Shown here: positions 2,027 through 9,844 of the stretch, piece after piece
How the letters are laid out: each line of letters opens with the position of its first letter
Numbering within the stretch: position 1 is the first letter of the stretch
Source: Ignavibacteriota bacterium
Lineage (GTDB): Bacteria > Bacteroidota > Ignavibacteria > Ignavibacteriales > Melioribacteraceae
DNA: 64,000 bases
Direction: 5' to 3'
Assembly (NCBI GenBank): GCA_013112585.1
Contig: JABFGH010000017.1
Location: 1 to 64,000 of the forward strand
Translations under genes and position numbers: made by a program
The notes under the pieces: model-generated
What the model was told of the DNA's origin: nothing
The model's input: only the letters and a program-made list of their open reading frames with translations
The model's database searches: none

Positions 2027-2515
2027 ATGAAAAAGTTAACATCATATTTTCTAACTGCACTATTACTAACGGTCTTTAGTTCAAAATCGTTCGGTCAAGG
2101 GGAGCCTATACAGCTTTCATTTGTAAATCCCATTCAAATAGTTCATGAATCGAAATCTATTAATGGACTTCGTTTCAATCTGCTCTATGGTAAGAACAAA
2201 AATGTAACAGGTCTTGATTTAGGATTAGTTAATCAGACAACCGGCAAACAAGCCGGAGTGCAATGGGGCGGGGTTAATTTAACTGATGGCGGATTCACCG
2301 GCTGGCAGTCTGGATTTGTAAACATATCTAAGGGAAGTTCACTGGGCTTACAAACGGGGACAGTAAATTATCACCAAGGGCATTTTAGCGGACTGCAATT
2401 CTCAATTGTAAATTATTCTGCAACATTAAACGGTCTTCAATTAGGGTTGATAAATATTATCGGCAAGGGAGGATTCTTACCGATCTTTCCACTCTTCAAT
2501 TTTGACTTTGATTAG
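2027..2515 (+). CDS. Small secreted GLxxGLVN-repeat surface protein (LA_2272-like)
   Basis: A secreted or outer-membrane protein of 162 residues with unknown role. The start is firm: AAAGGAGG lies four bases before the ATG. A signal peptide covers residues 1-23 (MKKLTSYFLT...SFG). From residue about 60 the protein is a run of short repeats of the kind GLDLGLVN, GVQWGGVN, GWQSGFVN, GLQTGTVN, GLQFSIVN and GLQLGLIN, spaced roughly every 16-19 residues. Such repeats are described for LA_2272-type surface repeat proteins and are expected to form a beta-solenoid or beta-sheet stack. The gene stands alone, and the non-coding repeat cluster begins just after its stop. Family assignment is from the repeat pattern alone. 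Confidence 0.7.
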   Translation: MKKLTSYFLTALLLTVFSSKSFGQGEPIQLSFVNPIQIVHESKSINGLRFNLLYGKNKNVTGLDLGLVNQTTGKQAGVQWGGVNLTDGGFTGWQSGFVNISKGSSLGLQTGTVNYHQGHFSGLQFSIVNYSATLNGLQLGLINIIGKGGFLPIFPLFNFDFD

Positions 2516-2616
2516 AAACATATTTTAGAAGAGCTGCCATCTTGCCTATCAAGATCATATCTTCGCTTTTGAAGATAGGATCTTTGGAAAGAATTTATGG
2601 GGACTAAAATTTTAAA

Positions 2617-2699
2617 AATTCGATATTCAAAATTCGGTGTTCGGTATTCATTATTGCTTTAAAAAGCAATATCGAATATCCAATGATGAATATCGAATT
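2617..2699 (+). repeat. MITE-like element, copy 1
   Basis: An 83-nt element with perfect 12-bp inverted ends: AATTCGATATTC at 2617-2628 and GAATATCGAATT at 2688-2699. Inside is a second hairpin, ATTGCTTT-AA-AAAGCAAT. The copies at 3090, 7292 and 7748 share this design. Confidence 0.8.
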
Positions 2700-2711
2700 A
2701 TGAAATTTTTG

Positions 2712-2900
2712 CTGCATTGTAGCGATATACTTTTTTCATTTACTTTCCTAAAAATTTTACTTCTAAAAGTAAAAGATGCCTTCTTCTTGAATAACCAAGT
2801 TTAAATATTTTATTAATTGCACCGTCATTTATGACGGTGAGAGTAATAAAAAAAACTATCGGGCTTTAGCCCAAAAACTATTTGCGTTATCCAAAGGATT
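2712..2900 (+). repeat. 190-nt palindromic repeat unit, copy 1
   Basis: Nearly identical to 7371-7560, with fewer than about a dozen differences by eye. It contains a perfect 9-bp inverted repeat, CACCGTCAT-TT-ATGACGGTG, and about 30 bases later GGGCTTTAGCCC. Both have the look of REP palindromes. No reading frame is conserved between the copies. Confidence 0.75.
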
Positions 2901-3089
2901 CCCACGGAAAAACCCAAGTAGGAATTAGCATTGCTCACACGCCGCTGAAGCACCGTGCTATTATTCTTTCATTGCTCTCCAAAGATGTCAACTCTAAAAG
3001 AAGAGTTGCCATCTTGCCCGCCAAGATCATATCTTCGCTTTTTGAAGATAGGATCTTCAGAAAGCATTTTTGGGGACTAAAATTTTAAA

Positions 3090-3172
3090 AATTCGATATT
3101 CAAAATTCGGCGTTCGGTATTCATTATTGCTTTAAAAAGCAATATCGAATATCCAATGATGAATAACGAATT
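3090..3172 (+). repeat. MITE-like element, copy 2
   Basis: Same design as 2617-2699. The left end AATTCGATATTC is intact. The right end reads GAATAACGAATT, one base off a perfect match. Confidence 0.8.
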
Positions 3173-3302
3173 GTGAAGTGAGTTTTTGATTGCCGCCGAT
3201 TAAGGGTTATCCAAAGGATTCACATGGGAAAACCCAAGTAGGAATTAGCATTGCTCACACGGCGCTGAAGCACCACGCTATTATTCTTTCATTGCTTTCC
3301 AA

Positions 3303-3552
3303 TCTTTATATCAAGTTTTTTATCTGAGAAGCGAAGCACAAAATACTTCCGTAATGCGGCGACATGTCCGCTATCAAACTAACCATGCCACTATATTTAA
3401 ATGCGGCTATTTGATAATCCTTGTAAAAAAGGATTTTAAATAATTGACAAATCAAATTTTATTTTAGTAAAATTAGTAATTAACACTATATTTATTTTAA
3501 AAGTGAATTAATTTTATTTGTCATTGGCAATCAGTAACTATAAGGAAAGATC
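3303..3552. other. Leader region of the 671-residue gene
   Basis: This stretch separates the left repeat cluster from the next gene. It holds a short hairpin (AATCCTT with AAGGATT, 3416-3435) followed by a few T, then a promoter-like pair described separately. No gene is seen. Confidence 0.5.
3444..3473 (+). promoter_or_regulatory. Sigma-70-like promoter candidate
   Basis: TTGACA (3444-3449) is followed after 18 bases by TAAAAT (3468-3473), about 80 bases before the start of the 671-residue gene. The match to consensus is good, but this phylum often uses a different promoter form and AT-rich DNA yields chance matches. Confidence 0.4.
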
Positions 3553-5568
3553 ATGAAATCGACTTATATAAAAGTTTTATGTTGTATTGTTTTCTTTTTT
3601 TCTATTAATCTTTCATTGTATTCAAAAGATAAGGTAGAAAATTTTGCGGAAGATTATGGGGAAAAGTTTGTTGAAGCAATTCGCAAAAATGATACAGCAA
3701 TATTGAAACAACTTTTCCCATCCGCCGGGCAGCTAAATCAATTTATCAATTCCTTACCTACGGATGAGCAAAATAAATATAGAAAAGATCATAAAGATTT
3801 GGCTGACGCTCTATCAACAATTGAGGAAACAGTAGTCGATGAATTTAACAATTCCCAAACCTATATGACAAATGAATTTCCTGTAATACCCTTAGGCAAT
3901 ATCAAATTAAAATCGACTGTGATTGATAATTCTGAAAAGTCACTTGTATATACTGAATTTGCTACGCACAAAATTGATATTACATTTTCAGTTGAAGACG
4001 ATGGTTTTGATAATTTATTTGATTTCCCCACTTATGCCTTGTTGACAGATGAAGGATTTTTTTTAGTAGATTTTTATGTTGAATATGAAATTCAGGAAAT
4101 AGCTACAGAAATGGCAAATGATTATGCAAAAAATATCCTGGAGATTTTTATTGAAAATAATTTTGAAAGATATCAAAAGAATCTTCGCCCAACATTAAAA
4201 GATGTTTCTTGGCATGTTCATAATCGATTAAATCCAGGAGACCGCAAAGATATATTAAGCAATCCCGCAGATTGGGGTTTTGATGAAAAAACTTTTAATA
4301 CCGATGGTCCAAAGTACTTTGATGATAATTTTAGATCTTGTGTAAATGATTTTAACGAGTACATTAATGTTGATTCAATCAAAAATTATAAATTTTTAGA
4401 TTGCAGTTTCTCCAACTCATTCATTCCGGAATTCACTGTTACCTCTATTATAAATATCACCTTTTCCATTGAGTATCTTAATGATGAAACTCGTTATTAT
4501 ATGATGGGTACCGGAATCCTACAAAGTAGTGATGAATATTATTTTGGAGCAATGGGTGAGATTGATGTTACTGAATTAGATGATCCAATTAATAAACAGC
4601 CTAAGTATAAAATTAAACTGCCTGAACCAGAACCAGCAGTATTGAATGAGTCTAAGATTTTTTGGGATATGAGCGGCAGAGCATGCCCCAAAGCTTCTTT
4701 CAATCTTACGGAAATAAAGGTAAATTATCGAGGTCACCAATATGCAAAAGTAATTGAATCTTCTGACAAACTTATAGACTGCCCCAATGGGATTACTTAT
4801 GATGATATGATTTTAGCTTATAGATACAGAGGTGATTCATACATGCAGATTTACAATGATTCCGGCACTTCCTATTTTACTAGAAAAAAAGAAAGAATTG
4901 AATCCGACCCTAAATTATTAGTTGAAGCTATTAAATCATATAACAATGCTTTTGAAGTAATTGAAAGAGGAAATATTAAATCATATGAATCAAAATATGC
5001 TGATCTATGTTCCAATCATTATAATGCTGTGGCGGTTTGTTACAATTATGCAATCGATATGCCTGATAGCTTATTTGCTGAGACTAGACCCTACTATGAA
5101 GCTGTTGCTGATGGTGCTGGCTATGCAACTGAAAATGTAGAACAAATGAAGAAGATAAAAGCTCTTGCAGGATATTATGCAGGGTTCTCTCTTGTGAACG
5201 AAAATAACAATTTAGTAAATGCTGATAGGTATTTGTCTATGGCAGTACCACTTGATGAATCTCTTTTATCAATGAACCGGGAGACCTTAATTTCAAGATT
5301 CTTACTCGATGAAAAAACATCTCAAACAGTCTACGATTATTTGGGTGTAGCTTGTTATCGTTTGTCAGCAGAATATCTTGATATTGCTAAAACCCATGAA
5401 ATTTCTAAAATGCTCCAGGAAGCACTCGAATTTAATAAAAAAGCTGAGAAATGTTTTAAGATTATTTTACTCTTAGCGCCAGAAGATCAAGAAACTTTAA
5501 CTAAATTAAATAAGACAACTGATCTTCATACTGAAATACAAAACGTATACAAAAAATTAACTCAGTAA
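3553..5568 (+). CDS. Exported protein of unknown function, duplicated module plus helical C-terminus
   Basis: I do not recognise this 671-residue protein. A signal peptide is plausible at residues 1-24 (MKSTYIKVLCCIVFFFSINL...), and AAGGAAAG precedes the ATG. The N-terminal half looks like a tandem duplication. A helical stretch at about 30-60 (DYGEKFVEAIRKNDTAILK) and another at about 190-215 (DYAKNILEIFIENNFERY) are each followed by a beta-rich part ending in ITFSVE or ITFSIE. Residues about 380-670 are mostly helical and may be TPR-like, with cysteines around 398-497. It faces two minus-strand genes and sits inside the repeat-bracketed segment, so recent acquisition is possible. Periplasmic or surface location is inferred from the signal peptide. 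Confidence 0.7.
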   Translation: MKSTYIKVLCCIVFFFSINLSLYSKDKVENFAEDYGEKFVEAIRKNDTAILKQLFPSAGQLNQFINSLPTDEQNKYRKDHKDLADALSTIEETVVDEFNNSQTYMTNEFPVIPLGNIKLKSTVIDNSEKSLVYTEFATHKIDITFSVEDDGFDNLFDFPTYALLTDEGFFLVDFYVEYEIQEIATEMANDYAKNILEIFIENNFERYQKNLRPTLKDVSWHVHNRLNPGDRKDILSNPADWGFDEKTFNTDGPKYFDDNFRSCVNDFNEYINVDSIKNYKFLDCSFSNSFIPEFTVTSIINITFSIEYLNDETRYYMMGTGILQSSDEYYFGAMGEIDVTELDDPINKQPKYKIKLPEPEPAVLNESKIFWDMSGRACPKASFNLTEIKVNYRGHQYAKVIESSDKLIDCPNGITYDDMILAYRYRGDSYMQIYNDSGTSYFTRKKERIESDPKLLVEAIKSYNNAFEVIERGNIKSYESKYADLCSNHYNAVAVCYNYAIDMPDSLFAETRPYYEAVADGAGYATENVEQMKKIKALAGYYAGFSLVNENNNLVNADRYLSMAVPLDESLLSMNRETLISRFLLDEKTSQTVYDYLGVACYRLSAEYLDIAKTHEISKMLQEALEFNKKAEKCFKIILLLAPEDQETLTKLNKTTDLHTEIQNVYKKLTQ

Positions 5569-5640
5569 TGTTTTATTTGTTTTAGGTTGAAGAATATTTT
5601 TGGTTATTGATTATATAGTTACTAGTAAGAACTGTAAACC

Positions 5641-5668
5641 GTGGGCGCCCCACCGCTTGTGGTGAGAT
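5641..5668. repeat. GC-rich double hairpin between convergent genes
   Basis: GTGGG-CGC-CCCAC is followed at once by CACC-GCTTGT-GGTG in otherwise AT-rich DNA, between the ends of two converging genes. It has no T-run, so an intrinsic terminator is not proven. It could equally be a remnant of a palindromic repeat. Confidence 0.45.
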
Positions 5669-5719
5669 TGATATTATCGCTCAATATTTATAAATGGAAA
5701 TTTTCATTTAACATATCTA

Positions 5720-6139
5720 CTATTGTTGATTCAATGTTTTAAATTCTGACTTTCGAGGGATAGTGAATAAAGACCAAGTAATTCCAATAAGGCAAAAATA
5801 ACCTAGTAAGGGATAGCTGCCGGTTAAATTAAACATAATATACCCGAAGATATAAATAAGGAAAACTATTAAAGTCCGTGTAATAAAAAATGATAAGGAA
5901 GAATTTTTATTCTTCAAAAATTTTAATTTATTTCTATTAAATAAATATGGGAGTATTAGTGAAAGTATGAACAATACTATCATAATAATCAGTTCAATAA
6001 CTTCATCTAATCGAGTAATTGAAATTGAGGTAAACTGAATTAAAGCAATGAAATATATTAAAAAAGGAAATATTGTTAAAAAAAGGATATGAAATAAAAG
6101 TGATGTAAAATAATGTTTATTCAAGTCGCTGTTTGTCAT
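5720..6139 (-). CDS. Small integral membrane protein, unknown
   Basis: 139 residues with four predicted membrane spans: about 12-34 (SLLFHILFLTIFPFLIYFIAL), 45-65 (VIELIIMIVLFILSLILPYLF), 84-104 (FFITRTLIVFLIYIFGYIMF) and 108-128 (YPLLGYFCLIGITWSLF). Short charged loops lie between them. No family is recognised. The ATG at 6139 has no clear ribosome site. It is the middle gene of the repeat-bracketed cassette and runs toward the 671-residue gene. A role with its neighbours is possible but not shown. Confidence 0.6.
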   Translation of the reverse strand: MTNSDLNKHYFTSLLFHILFLTIFPFLIYFIALIQFTSISITRLDEVIELIIMIVLFILSLILPYLFNRNKLKFLKNKNSSLSFFITRTLIVFLIYIFGYIMFNLTGSYPLLGYFCLIGITWSLFTIPRKSEFKTLNQQ

Positions 6140-6352
6140 TGTTTTTCTTGTTATTAAAAGGTTCGGTATTTATTATACAATAATCTTATCTAAAAAATTA
6201 AAAATTCAATTATAAATAATCTAAAATTGCTAATTATAAATATTTAATATTTCATTTTTGAATAATTGGCAAATAGTCCTATTTAGTAAGAAGCAGAACT
6301 ATTTATGAGTGAAATATATTTTAAATTCCAGATAGTAGAGAAATTCTTATTA

Positions 6353-6946
6353 CTATCTAAATCTCAGAGCATTTAAAATTTCTGGGTTAGCTAATTCTTT
6401 TTTTATCTCCTCAGAATATTCACTAAATAGTTGAATTACATATATCCAACCTTTATCATCATTTCGTATACTCAATAAGATACCTTCTTTATAGTTACTA
6501 AAAGCACTTTTGAATGCTTCTTTAATAGTGAAAAAACTAATTGCAGCCCAATCAGCATTTAAATTTGATTTAGCCATTTCATTTGGCATTTCATTTAAAG
6601 GAATAGTAATTGAATCTGAAATACTTGTAAGTACAGATTTATAGGCATCATCCTTTACTGTTTCAGTTGAATCTGCAAGATGAATAATATATCGAATTTC
6701 TAAATCGGCTATTTTTGACTGCATCCGAAAATCATATTCAATTGCTTTATTCTCAAGTACCTTCAAACTATTGCAACGTCTTTCAACCATATTTGCATTA
6801 TCTACATCCATAGTAGGTTCAATAAAGAAAATTGCCCCACTTTTAAGTTTCGTTTTAAATCCTTCAGGTAATTCCCAAGTGTCTTCAGCAAATACTAATT
6901 GTACAAGTAATAGAGATATAAAAATTAATAATATATTTTTCTTCAT
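6353..6946 (-). CDS. Exported protein of unknown function
   Basis: 197 residues, with a clear signal peptide at residues 1-20 (MKKNILLIFISLLLVQLVFA) and GGAG five bases before the ATG. The mature part is about 177 residues of mixed alpha/beta character, with no motif I can name. Notable stretches are SGAIFFIEPTMDVDN near the N-terminus and EILNALRFR at the end. It is followed, 213 bases on, by the small membrane protein on the same strand. A 65-codon frame on the opposite strand over its 5' part is a shadow. Confidence 0.65.
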   Translation of the reverse strand: MKKNILLIFISLLLVQLVFAEDTWELPEGFKTKLKSGAIFFIEPTMDVDNANMVERRCNSLKVLENKAIEYDFRMQSKIADLEIRYIIHLADSTETVKDDAYKSVLTSISDSITIPLNEMPNEMAKSNLNADWAAISFFTIKEAFKSAFSNYKEGILLSIRNDDKGWIYVIQLFSEYSEEIKKELANPEILNALRFR

Positions 6947-7291
6947 GTTTTCTCCGTTTTGGAATTAATTTATTTTGAGATACAGGAATATAGGTTTTCA
7001 AGACAAATTGTCCAATAATTTTTATTGAATATTGCATTATTTAAATTTTGAATATCCAATGATGAATAACGAATTATTAATTGTACGCTGCGCTGAAGCA
7101 CCTTGCTATTATCCTTTTAGTGCTTTCCAAAGATGTCAACTCTAAAAGAAGAGTTGCCATCTTGCCCGCCAAGATCATATCTTCGCTTTTTGAAGATAGG
7201 ATATTTGGAAAGCATTTTTAGAATTTTAAGTTTGAGTTGCCTCATCTGTAATGTTGTTATTAAACATAAGCAACTGATCAAAAATTTTAAA

Positions 7292-7359
7292 AATTCGATA
7301 TTCTTTATTCGTCATTGACTTAAAAGCAATATCGAATATCCAATGATGAATAACGAATT
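7292..7359 (+). repeat. MITE-like element, copy 3 (shortened)
   Basis: The left end AATTCGATATTC is at 7292-7303 and the right end GAATAACGAATT at 7348-7359. At 68 nt it is shorter than the other copies because the interior lacks the stretch found at 2630-2645. Confidence 0.75.
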
Positions 7360-7370
7360 ATGAAGTTTTT

Positions 7371-7560
7371 GTTGCATTGCAGCGATACACTTTTTTCATT
7401 TGCTTTCCCAAAAATTTCACTTCTAAAAGTAAAAGATGCCTTCTTCTTGAATAACCAAGTTTAAATATTTTATTAATTGCACCGTCATTTATGACGGTGA
7501 GAGTAATAAAAAAACTAGTGGGCTTTAGCCCAAAAACTATTTGAGTTATCCAAAGGATTC
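7371..7560 (+). repeat. 190-nt palindromic repeat unit, copy 2
   Basis: Near-identical partner of 2712-2900, carrying the same CACCGTCAT/ATGACGGTG and GGGCTTTAGCCC palindromes. The high identity between copies 4.7 kb apart suggests recent duplication or gene conversion. Confidence 0.75.
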
Positions 7561-7747
7561 ACATGGAAAAACCCAGTCGGGTTTGCTTTGCTAACACGGC
7601 GCTGAAGCACCGTGCTATTATTCGTTTCATTGCTTTCCAAAGATGTCAACTCTAAAATGAAGAGTTGCCATCTTGCCCGCCAAGATCATATCTTCGCTTT
7701 TGAAGATAGGATCTTTGGAAAGCGTTTTTGGGGACTAAAATTTTTAA

Positions 7748-7828
7748 AATTCGATATTCAAAATTCGGTGTTCATTATTCGTCATTGATTTAAAACAATA
7801 TCGAATATCCAATGATGAATATCGAATT
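7748..7828 (+). repeat. MITE-like element, copy 4
   Basis: 81 nt with perfect 12-bp inverted ends (7748-7759 and 7817-7828), as in copy 1. Confidence 0.8.
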
Positions 7829-7933
7829 ATGAAGTGAGTTTTTGATTGCCACTAATTAAAGATTAAAACCCATTACAGGTTTGCTTTGCTCACACGCCGC
7901 TGAAGCACCGTGCTATTTAAATATTATATTCCA

Positions 7934-9844
7934 TTACTCAAACCGTAAAATCCCATACCGCTGCGGCTGATAAAGATTACCCGACCAAACCATTTCTTTA
8001 GGATCACTCTGCTGGCGGTGTCTGCCGATGTTTATTCCCCATTCATCTCCCGGTTTGGGTCCTTTTTCTAAATCTATATCACTCCACGGAATCTGCATTT
8101 CCAAATACCATGCGTCTTCACCAATTACAATTTTGCTTTTGTATTTGCTTTCAAAATATTTATTGGGCACGTAGCGCTGAAGTGAGTTAAATCTTGTTCC
8201 AGCGCTGTTCTGGAAAAGCCGGGTGTAATGTTTTTGTGTTTGTTCAGTATCAAAAAATAATTCGAGATCATCATCGTTCCAGGTAAACGGAATTGGACCT
8301 TCAGCAGTTGAAACCAAATTTTGCGGATTCGGTTCTTCCATTTTTGCGGTTACGTATAAATAATCTTTATCGTAAAGAAATTTTATTACTGTTTGCAGTT
8401 CTACTGCTTTACCGCTGCTATAATTTAAATTTGAGATTGAATCAGCATTCAGCCAATCCGGTTCATTGAAAATACCATCAATAGTTATCTTTCCATTTTT
8501 AGGTTTTGCAACAATAACCGGCGGAACAAATAGTTCATACTCCCCTTCAAACATAACGAGTTTATCAAGTTTAATACTCGGCTGCAGTTCCTTTGCAATT
8601 TTTGATTTCTTAAGCATTTTATATTTTTGTTCCAACTCTCTGGCAACAACCCCCGACCGTAAAAGTTTTTCAGATTGAATTATTAATCCGGGCATTAAAT
8701 CAGAGGATGGTGCCTTCTCAGATTTTAAGCTGAACGATTTTACAGTTTTACCTTTTGCAGGTAAATCCAGCCACATAAAAAAAGGTTCGATATTAATTTC
8801 AGAACCGTATGGAACATCCCATGTTAATTTATACGTCCGTGCTTCATCTAATAAATTTTCAATTGGTACATCAACTGTAATATCCAGCGGTTTGCCCTCT
8901 TTCCAGTCAGGTACTTGAATTGTTTTATCAGCAATGTTGTACTTTGGTACTCTTTTTCTTTCATCCGGATTGACTGTATCGAGCGGAAGAATTGACCCGG
9001 CTTTAATTGCGGCATAGCTAACATCGCCGCCTGGTAAAACACTTACATGCATAAATGCTGAAAACTTACCTTCACGCGTACTTCGCCTTTTTACTCCGGC
9101 ACTGTTAATAATAAGGTAATTTATTCCGTCTCGTTCTTCCCACACATGTTCGTGTGTGTGTCCACCGGCAACTAACTTTGTAGGATATTTTTTTAACAGT
9201 TCATGAACAAGGTCCCAATCTTTTCGTCCTTCCGTATCTTTGCTGTACTTCCAAAGCGGGCTATGAAGAAAAACAAAAATTGATTTTTGATTAAACTCAT
9301 CCGAGCCGTAACCGCCGTTTTCAGCAGCGAATTTTTCTAAATCATTTTTCAGCCAATCGCGCTGCCATTCTGCAATTCTATCATCTTCTTCACCCCACCA
9401 TGAATTTAATACAATGCAATGTACAGAGCCTTTATCAAATGAATAGAGTAATTTTTCTTTTCCCCAAACTTCTGCATAAACTTCTTCAGCTTCATCAGTA
9501 ACAACATCATGATTGCCGGGCACAGGATAGTAAGGCATGCTTAGCGGAGCAATCTGATTTTTAAATCGCATCCATTCTCTTTGCAATTGGTTTTTATCGT
9601 GTGTATAACCGTGTATTAAATCGCCGACTTGAATTACAAAATCGGGTCGGAGCATTTCCGCTTCATGAATCATTCTTTCAAATTGGGGCGGGTTTCCGAA
9701 CTGGCTATCGCCGAATATTATAAATCTTATTTCCTCTCTTGGTGACTCAAGCCTGAGATAGCCGAAAGCTGTTTGCTGAACGAATAAAATTACAAATAAC
9801 ATTGCAGCTAAATTTAGAGCGCTGAATTTTAATTTAGTTTTCAT
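7934..9844 (-). CDS. Secreted metallophosphoesterase fused to a CBM9-like domain
   Basis: A two-part exported enzyme of 636 residues. A signal peptide covers about 1-28. Residues 38-260 form a calcineurin-like metallophosphoesterase with all metal motifs visible: GDSQ (45-48), GDLIHG (74-79), GNHD (110-113), HSP (194-196) and GGHTH (227-231). A linker domain of about 300-450 may be Ig-like. Residues about 455-636 resemble a family 9 carbohydrate-binding domain (ITIDGIFNEPDW, LYVTAKMEEP, DDDLELFFDT, WGINIGRHR). The enzyme probably hydrolyses a phosphate ester or phosphodiester outside the cytoplasm while bound to glycan; the substrate is unknown. The gene is monocistronic and ends against the right repeat cluster. 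Confidence 0.85.
   Translation of the reverse strand: MKTKLKFSALNLAAMLFVILFVQQTAFGYLRLESPREEIRFIIFGDSQFGNPPQFERMIHEAEMLRPDFVIQVGDLIHGYTHDKNQLQREWMRFKNQIAPLSMPYYPVPGNHDVVTDEAEEVYAEVWGKEKLLYSFDKGSVHCIVLNSWWGEEDDRIAEWQRDWLKNDLEKFAAENGGYGSDEFNQKSIFVFLHSPLWKYSKDTEGRKDWDLVHELLKKYPTKLVAGGHTHEHVWEERDGINYLIINSAGVKRRSTREGKFSAFMHVSVLPGGDVSYAAIKAGSILPLDTVNPDERKRVPKYNIADKTIQVPDWKEGKPLDITVDVPIENLLDEARTYKLTWDVPYGSEINIEPFFMWLDLPAKGKTVKSFSLKSEKAPSSDLMPGLIIQSEKLLRSGVVARELEQKYKMLKKSKIAKELQPSIKLDKLVMFEGEYELFVPPVIVAKPKNGKITIDGIFNEPDWLNADSISNLNYSSGKAVELQTVIKFLYDKDYLYVTAKMEEPNPQNLVSTAEGPIPFTWNDDDLELFFDTEQTQKHYTRLFQNSAGTRFNSLQRYVPNKYFESKYKSKIVIGEDAWYLEMQIPWSDIDLEKGPKPGDEWGINIGRHRQQSDPKEMVWSGNLYQPQRYGILRFE

Follow-up and report, generated by a model that had tools for sequence, protein, structure and literature searches.

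Two same-direction arrays of hairpin-forming repeats bracket three little-known genes in an Ignavibacteriota genome

The window analysed here is a stretch of 64,000 nucleotides at the start of contig JABFGH010000017.1 of an Ignavibacteriota bacterium (assembly GCA_013112585.1; family Melioribacteraceae), and our subject is a pair of repeat clusters near its left end, together with the block of three genes that they enclose. The clusters, of about 770 bp each, occupy positions 2527-3302 and 7044-7917 and hold common parts in like order and direction. Cluster 1 reads A B m C1 CD A B CD and cluster 2 reads B' CD' A B m C1 CD A B CD, all on the + strand; A, B, C1 and CD are repeats and m is a spacer (Table 1). 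The genes between them encode proteins of 671, 139 and 197 aa. An earlier note on this DNA had described two same-direction clusters with the same parts on either side of three genes. Repeat finding and cluster alignment bear this out, the three open reading frames (ORFs) lie where the note had placed them, and the paired repeats are confirmed as real. The right cluster is present as described, with its bounds corrected: a truncated B' opens it at about 7023-7044, and its right end is at 7917.

Table 1. Repeats, spacers and genes of the locus, in window positions
Feature	Position	Strand	Basis
Repeat A, copy truncated on left	2527..2592	+	Repeat finding, own-genome comparison
Repeat B, imperfect palindrome of TTCG/ATTC words	2604..2712	+	
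Spacer m, within own genome matched only in the two clusters	2712..2806	+	
Repeat C1, a pair of hairpins; C1-type copies also lie on either side of the contig C25 Y1 transposase gene	2806..2880	+	
Repeat CD, further hairpins usually after C1	2880..2985	+	
Repeat A, full copy	2966..3064	+	
Repeat B	3077..3177	+	
Repeat CD, right end of cluster 1	3206..3302	+	
671-aa protein, signal-like N-terminus, no relative detected	3553..5568	+	
139-aa protein with four hydrophobic stretches, none of its matches convincing	5720..6139	-	
197-aa exported protein, Bacteroidota/Ignavibacteria family, predicted PsbP/Mog1-like fold	6353..6946	-	
Repeat B', right arm only	7023..7080	+	
Repeat CD', truncated	7085..7133	+	
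Repeat A	7113..7212	+	
Repeat B, divergent copy	7284..7371	+	
Spacer m	7373..7466	+	
Repeat C1	7466..7539	+	
Repeat CD	7539..7643	+	
Repeat A	7623..7722	+	
Repeat B	7735..7833	+	
Repeat CD, partial, right end of cluster 2	7865..7917	+	

After alignment the two clusters are about 88% identical (82% in the genome-search alignment), and a search of the genome with cluster 1 matched cluster 2 at E = 7e-230; together these values exclude chance as the source of the likeness. Repeat finding returned direct pairs of 193 nt at 96% (2662-2854 / 7322-7514) and 129 nt at 94% (2943-3071 / 7091-7219), with shorter families besides. Spacer m and repeat C1 agree between the clusters at 95% over about 180 bp, and the longest exact runs common to both are 96 and 77 bp, a length that is in principle enough for homologous recombination. 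The suggestion of the earlier note that the block could be lost or gained by recombination is upheld to that extent, whereas a special cassette finds no support: an excisable one is possible, the sole positive evidence for it being the repeats themselves.

Repeats of the same kinds are dispersed through the genome. Cluster 1 as query gave 62 match rows, six in the window and 56 outside it on 21 other contigs (scoring covered 40 of the 127 first-look candidates, and a few rows represent both strands of a single palindrome). The repeats thus scatter largely freely, and the proposed tie between them and this particular gene set does not hold. A sample of 476 kb of the organism's own DNA, made up of the window and 30 stretches mostly picked for their matches, contains 31 copies of A, 21 of B, 18 of C1 and 17 of CD; the midpoints of 85 of these 87 copies fall outside ORFs of at least 100 aa. 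C1 and CD are widely spread and A and B fewer and patchier, since 398 kb picked regardless of repeats holds six copies of C1, three of CD and none of A or B. One Markov-shuffled control of the 398 kb contained no copies.

Part of the cluster order, B-CD-A-B, recurs on contig C32, between a 255-aa ORF whose GLTP match is below the cut-off and a protein that we take, from its sequence, to be RecN-like. The A copy there is 92-98% and the B copies are 89-99% identical to window copies, with only 77-79% identity between those B copies and the divergent window B at 7284. Same-direction copies of A stand around other genes on contigs C3 (3.3 kb apart) and C10 (1.6 kb), and contig C21 has three in a span of 1.8 kb; the ORFs listed near the A copies on these three contigs show no resemblance to the three window proteins. 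Given clusters, copies or arrays on contigs C32, C3, C10, C21 and C4, arrays beside or around genes are background in this genome. Contig C4 has two arrays of a different family, each made of multi-hairpin units in tandem (L149:6660-7540 and L149:16160-17420); the repeat spacing is about 241-246 bp, and the arrays face opposite ways with about 9 kb between them.

The genus set consisted of this genome alone, and the wider comparison covered 75 other genomes of the family, with at most 10 candidates scored per genome. An m-C1-CD query matched in 17 of them at E <= 0.001, several of the matches being short or outside C1. The genome G046 gave 11 matches, among them C1 and CD 30 bp apart, and C1-type matches are present in other genera of the family. 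An A-B query found short, weak matches only, in 7 of the 75.

C1 and CD are one element, since CD follows in the same orientation in 12 of the 18 C1 copies. Its hairpins are conserved in an alignment of 11 copies, with no pair changed on both sides. Element A forms two hairpins in series, for which 24 consensus pairs are predicted from 14 copies; two of these pairs carry changes at both positions, one in 6 sequences and the other in 5. B is itself an imperfect palindrome. Copies on contig C25 have the stems CCGGCA/TGCCGG and CCCGCCA/TGGCGGG where the window has ACCGTCA/TGACGGT, and the differences are complementary. Some C1-CD copies hold a second hairpin-like insert, mostly GC-rich and of the GCCCGCCTTTGCCGGCAGGCAGGC type, so that repeats are nested in repeats (L024:11724-11924, L025:7048-7247, L027:14322-14540, L075:5071-5269 and L074:5099-5313). 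A search of positions 2400-8000 against Rfam gave only sub-threshold snoRNA- and miRNA-like matches, which we take as chance.

In these properties the elements resemble repetitive extragenic palindromic (REP) sequences and the REPtrons built around TnpAREP or RAYT transposases, as these are described in PMC6006769 and PMC3733652: they are palindromic, dispersed and intergenic, they form clusters and inverted pairs, and copies of C1 stand to the left and right of a Y1 (IS200-like) transposase gene. Set against the same descriptions, they differ in showing no GTAG/CGTC foot by eye, in units of about 160-180 bp with several hairpins, and in that A and B are without a known transposase. We call them REP-like, and not canonical REPs, because no GTAG or CGTC tetranucleotide was seen by eye at the foot in the alignments of A and C1-CD.

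How did two such arrays come to lie on either side of the genes? Within the genome, the two clusters alone gave matches to spacer m, among 10 of 120 candidates scored for the m-C1-CD query (14 matches) and 40 of 127 for cluster 1, and the other stretches examined had none. Fragments of m 28-40 bp long match in at least five other family genomes (E 4e-5 to 8e-4). This private spacer makes it most likely that one of the clusters was derived from the other. An independent origin of the two, the same elements having inserted repeatedly at each site, would be in keeping with the dispersal of those elements and with the contig C32 copies of A and B, which are at least as similar to cluster 1 as are those of cluster 2; it is nevertheless very improbable, given eight parts in the same order and the close agreement of m and C1. 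The cluster edges are informative as well. Cluster 1 ends a few bases into a CD-A junction, where A would go on, and cluster 2 starts inside a B element, so the pair reads as what may have been one longer array, with the gene block inside it and about one A and half a B missing. Insertion, local duplication and integration of a circle all fit the data alike.

We consider it probable that the clusters are paralogous arrays of dispersed, hairpin-forming, REP-like intergenic elements which do nothing specific for the three genes. The elements would have spread as passive repeats, the C1 type by means of a Y1 enzyme; a composite array would then have formed and been duplicated locally; and the three genes would have come to lie between the array halves by insertion into the array or by its duplication. 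Several observations weigh against this account. A and B are absent from the unselected 398 kb. Covariation support for the hairpins is weak, because the RNAalifold covariation term is unfavourable in both alignments (+0.99 for A, +0.31 for C1-CD). No cognate transposase for A and B emerged: neither lies at the gene in any of eight Y1 loci (on contigs C10, C37 and C9 both are missing from the gene flanks), and the closest copy is about 1.2 kb from the contig C9 gene. The private spacer and common order make the clusters more than two random landings. Finally, the block between the clusters has a GC content of 29.3%, against 32-35% around it, which would fit a foreign insert.

That base composition bears on a different explanation, in which the block was gained as a cassette. 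The three genes and one array would have arrived on a circle that integrated into a resident array by homologous recombination, leaving direct repeats by which the block could leave again. Direct repeats with long exact runs and an AT-rich block would fit such an event, and the 671-aa gene was matched in 1 of 395 genomes of the phylum, the one analysed here. Its lack of a match in every other phylum genome searched can also be set beside the right neighbour of the block, a phosphoesterase with CBM9 that has relatives at E <= 1e-100 in 4 of the 75 other family genomes. The regions around those four relatives (8-20 kb) have no gene order in common with the window, however, and so are not informative as empty sites. 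When their ORFs were set against the ORFs in the window's first 40 kb, five partial matches came up in addition to the neighbour: three cover 92-107 residues of the protein at 122-1543, which has a C-terminal sorting domain (PF18962), and two involve window proteins beyond 35 kb. Nor does the block look like a recent arrival, because the arrays differ at about 12% of positions and any integration would be old. No recombinase was matched when the three proteins were compared with Pfam, NCBIfam and PHROG, and the genes point in different directions. Codon use is ordinary for length in the 671-aa gene (37th percentile) and the 197-aa gene (50th) and an outlier in the 139-aa gene (100th), as a short, very hydrophobic protein may show. 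Among 297 genes of this genome the GC content of the three ranks at the 16th (671), 1st (139) and 7th (197) percentile. On this balance a gained cassette is unlikely.

The Y1 genes offer another way in which repeats and genes could be connected. On contig C25 such a gene has C1-type hairpins on both sides. HuH and Y---Q--HH motifs occur together in four of the eight Y1 loci, on contigs C25, C24, C13 and C1 (L020:13523-14412, L009, L010 and L011). Y---Q--HH is the tyrosine motif of TnpAY1 subclass 1.2, for which PMC6006769 prints the motifs DH[IV]H, WQ and YIKNQKEHH and, in its Table 1, a REP entry of 'no'. Our assignment to the subclass is by motif and not by tree. The contig C24 protein is the sole one of the four to fit all three printed motifs; the contig C25 protein has EHVH and that of contig C1 DHLH, and WS replaces WQ in the contig C13 protein, so that DH[IV]H is found in two of the four (contigs C24 and C13) and WQ in three (contigs C25, C24 and C1). 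Against the printed 'no', all four genes are bracketed by repeat arrays. Comparing 360 bp per side and taking the better of direct and inverted orientation, we obtained flank-to-flank scores of 96 (inverted), 292, 305 and 103 (direct), the arrays around three of the four being direct; the 99th percentile of 302 control genes, which take in the contig C1 Y1 gene itself (score 103), was 38. Another control scored 117, a 232-aa lipoprotein-like gene (L133:7837-8535) between direct copies of a different repeat family with TGTCATTACGA words. With rough gene borders, the other Y1 loci scored 104 (direct) on contig C9, 29 on contig C37 and 22 on contig C10, and the contig C9 value means that Y1 genes other than those of the Y---Q--HH type can have repeat brackets as well.

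The repeats flanking the contig C25 gene, and the related ones on contigs C24 and C1, have dispersed copies in the unselected 398 kb, where the contig C24 and C1 repeats matched the same places and were counted as one related family. One of the two contig C1 queries, R_C1a, found its own locus only, and the contig C13 flank repeats gave no dispersed copies in that sample. The arrays bracketing the four Y---Q--HH genes suggest that subclass 1.2 could have cognate repeats after all, and the genome holds several large multi-hairpin REP-like families. Among titles and abstract openings we came across no description of repeat-bracketed Y1 genes of subclass 1.2.

Conceivably, a Y1 transposase acting in trans moves the block in single-stranded form, as a composite mobile segment with REP brackets; C1-type elements flanking a Y1 gene and same-direction arrays around three of the four Y---Q--HH genes would allow this. 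The genome contains no second copy of the 671-aa or 197-aa gene, though, and the block shows no target-site evidence, so we give this reading a very small chance. The least probable of the explanations considered here is that a subclass 1.2-type Y1 enzyme cuts same-direction REP-like arrays, that the DNA between them leaves and re-enters as a single-stranded circle, and that the three-gene block is one such passenger; if it were true, there would be REP-bracketed passenger segments made of otherwise ordinary genes. The ordinary account, REP-like arrays and little-known genes side by side, is the most likely.

The 671-aa gene converges on the 139-aa and 197-aa genes, which share one direction and have a gap of 213 bp between them, so the three are not one transcription unit and the earlier view of them as a single unit has to be given up. 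The 671-aa protein, which by its signal-like N-terminus is a putatively exported, lineage-specific protein, found nothing in Pfam or PADLOC at E <= 1; its single NCBIfam match (0.83) is at chance level, and PHROG gave none below 0.1. It was matched in none of 394 other phylum genomes (at most three candidates scored per genome), in none of the genome_contigs, viral_contigs and plasmids collections, and by no Protein Data Bank (PDB) sequence below E 0.7. The idea that its N-terminal half is internally duplicated gained no support when tested, and its predicted structure, at a predicted local distance difference test (pLDDT) score of 33, was set aside.

The 139-aa protein has four hydrophobic stretches, identified by eye. 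Twelve of the 394 other phylum genomes matched it at E <= 0.01, and none of the matches was accepted. The best, at 9e-5, has three internal stops; those between 1e-4 and 1e-2 are mostly short or contain internal stops; one longer open match, in the genome G168, has E 8e-4 and 25% identity. The Pfam family DUF2157 fell below the cut-off (E 0.02), and weak partial PADLOC matches to the 139-aa (E 0.03) and 197-aa (E 0.001) proteins were likewise turned down.

More can be said of the 197-aa protein. It had no match in 78 other family genomes and was matched in 5 of the 394 other phylum genomes at E <= 0.01. Genes in G186 (4e-8) and G290 (1.6e-3) were accepted as relatives; the G185 match has an internal stop, and those in G315 and G331 were judged unrelated on inspection. 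An alignment search of genome_contigs found five loci, in Flavobacterium, Mucilaginibacter (two), Saprospiraceae and an Ignavibacteria bacterium, the last identical in sequence to the G290 gene and counted as the same gene. A six-row alignment of the family has a common core of the NADWGA...HRDDVADAY type. Pfam gave nothing at E <= 1 for the 197-aa protein or two relatives. The gene joins an exported family, with an NADWGA...HRDD core, for which we found no Pfam or NCBIfam entry. In the 19.5-kb neighbourhoods of both the G186 and the G290 gene no relative of the 671-aa or 139-aa protein is present.

The structural model of the 197-aa protein (pLDDT 69.8, predicted template modelling score 0.67) has as its best match the cyanobacterial PsbP 2xb3 (Z 10.2, root-mean-square deviation 3.3, 134 aligned residues). 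Z was at least 8 for 37 of 998 chains, and those listed are mainly of the PsbP, Mog1, LpqN/MTC28 and EagR types; Foldseek alone gave no match at E <= 0.001, the best being 1.7e-3. The predicted fold is therefore that of PsbP/Mog1/LpqN/DcrB proteins, whereas identity to 2xb3 is 10% and the protein belongs to a family of its own. Proteins of the PsbP/Mog1 type are often exported or complex-associated accessory proteins, and for this reason the 197-aa protein is, on its model, most likely an exported PsbP/Mog1-like fold protein that would serve as an envelope accessory or binding factor.

A further repeat arrangement was met at PF05635 four-helix-bundle genes. We had considered B as the bare end of a mobile element carrying such genes; B lies beside only 1 of the 10 in this genome, with complete B copies on both sides of it, and the link was dropped. 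PF05635 genes tend to have inverted flank arrays whose short words vary between copies. The test kept 35 of 40 loci, from L085-L094 (this genome) and L095-L124 (family genomes); the five dropped take in L092-L094 of this genome, where the self-match was not best-ranked in its row in a separate comparison of the 10 genes of this genome (it was in 6 of the 10). The median flank self-match was 29 as against 18 for cross pairs, the self-match was best-ranked in 13 of the 35 (permutation p 5e-5), and 43% of the 35 loci reached a score that 9% of 70 control genes reached. Literature listings returned nothing on copy-specific inverted flanks of PF05635 genes. Such genes are present in 74 of 76 family genomes searched, with up to 31 in one.

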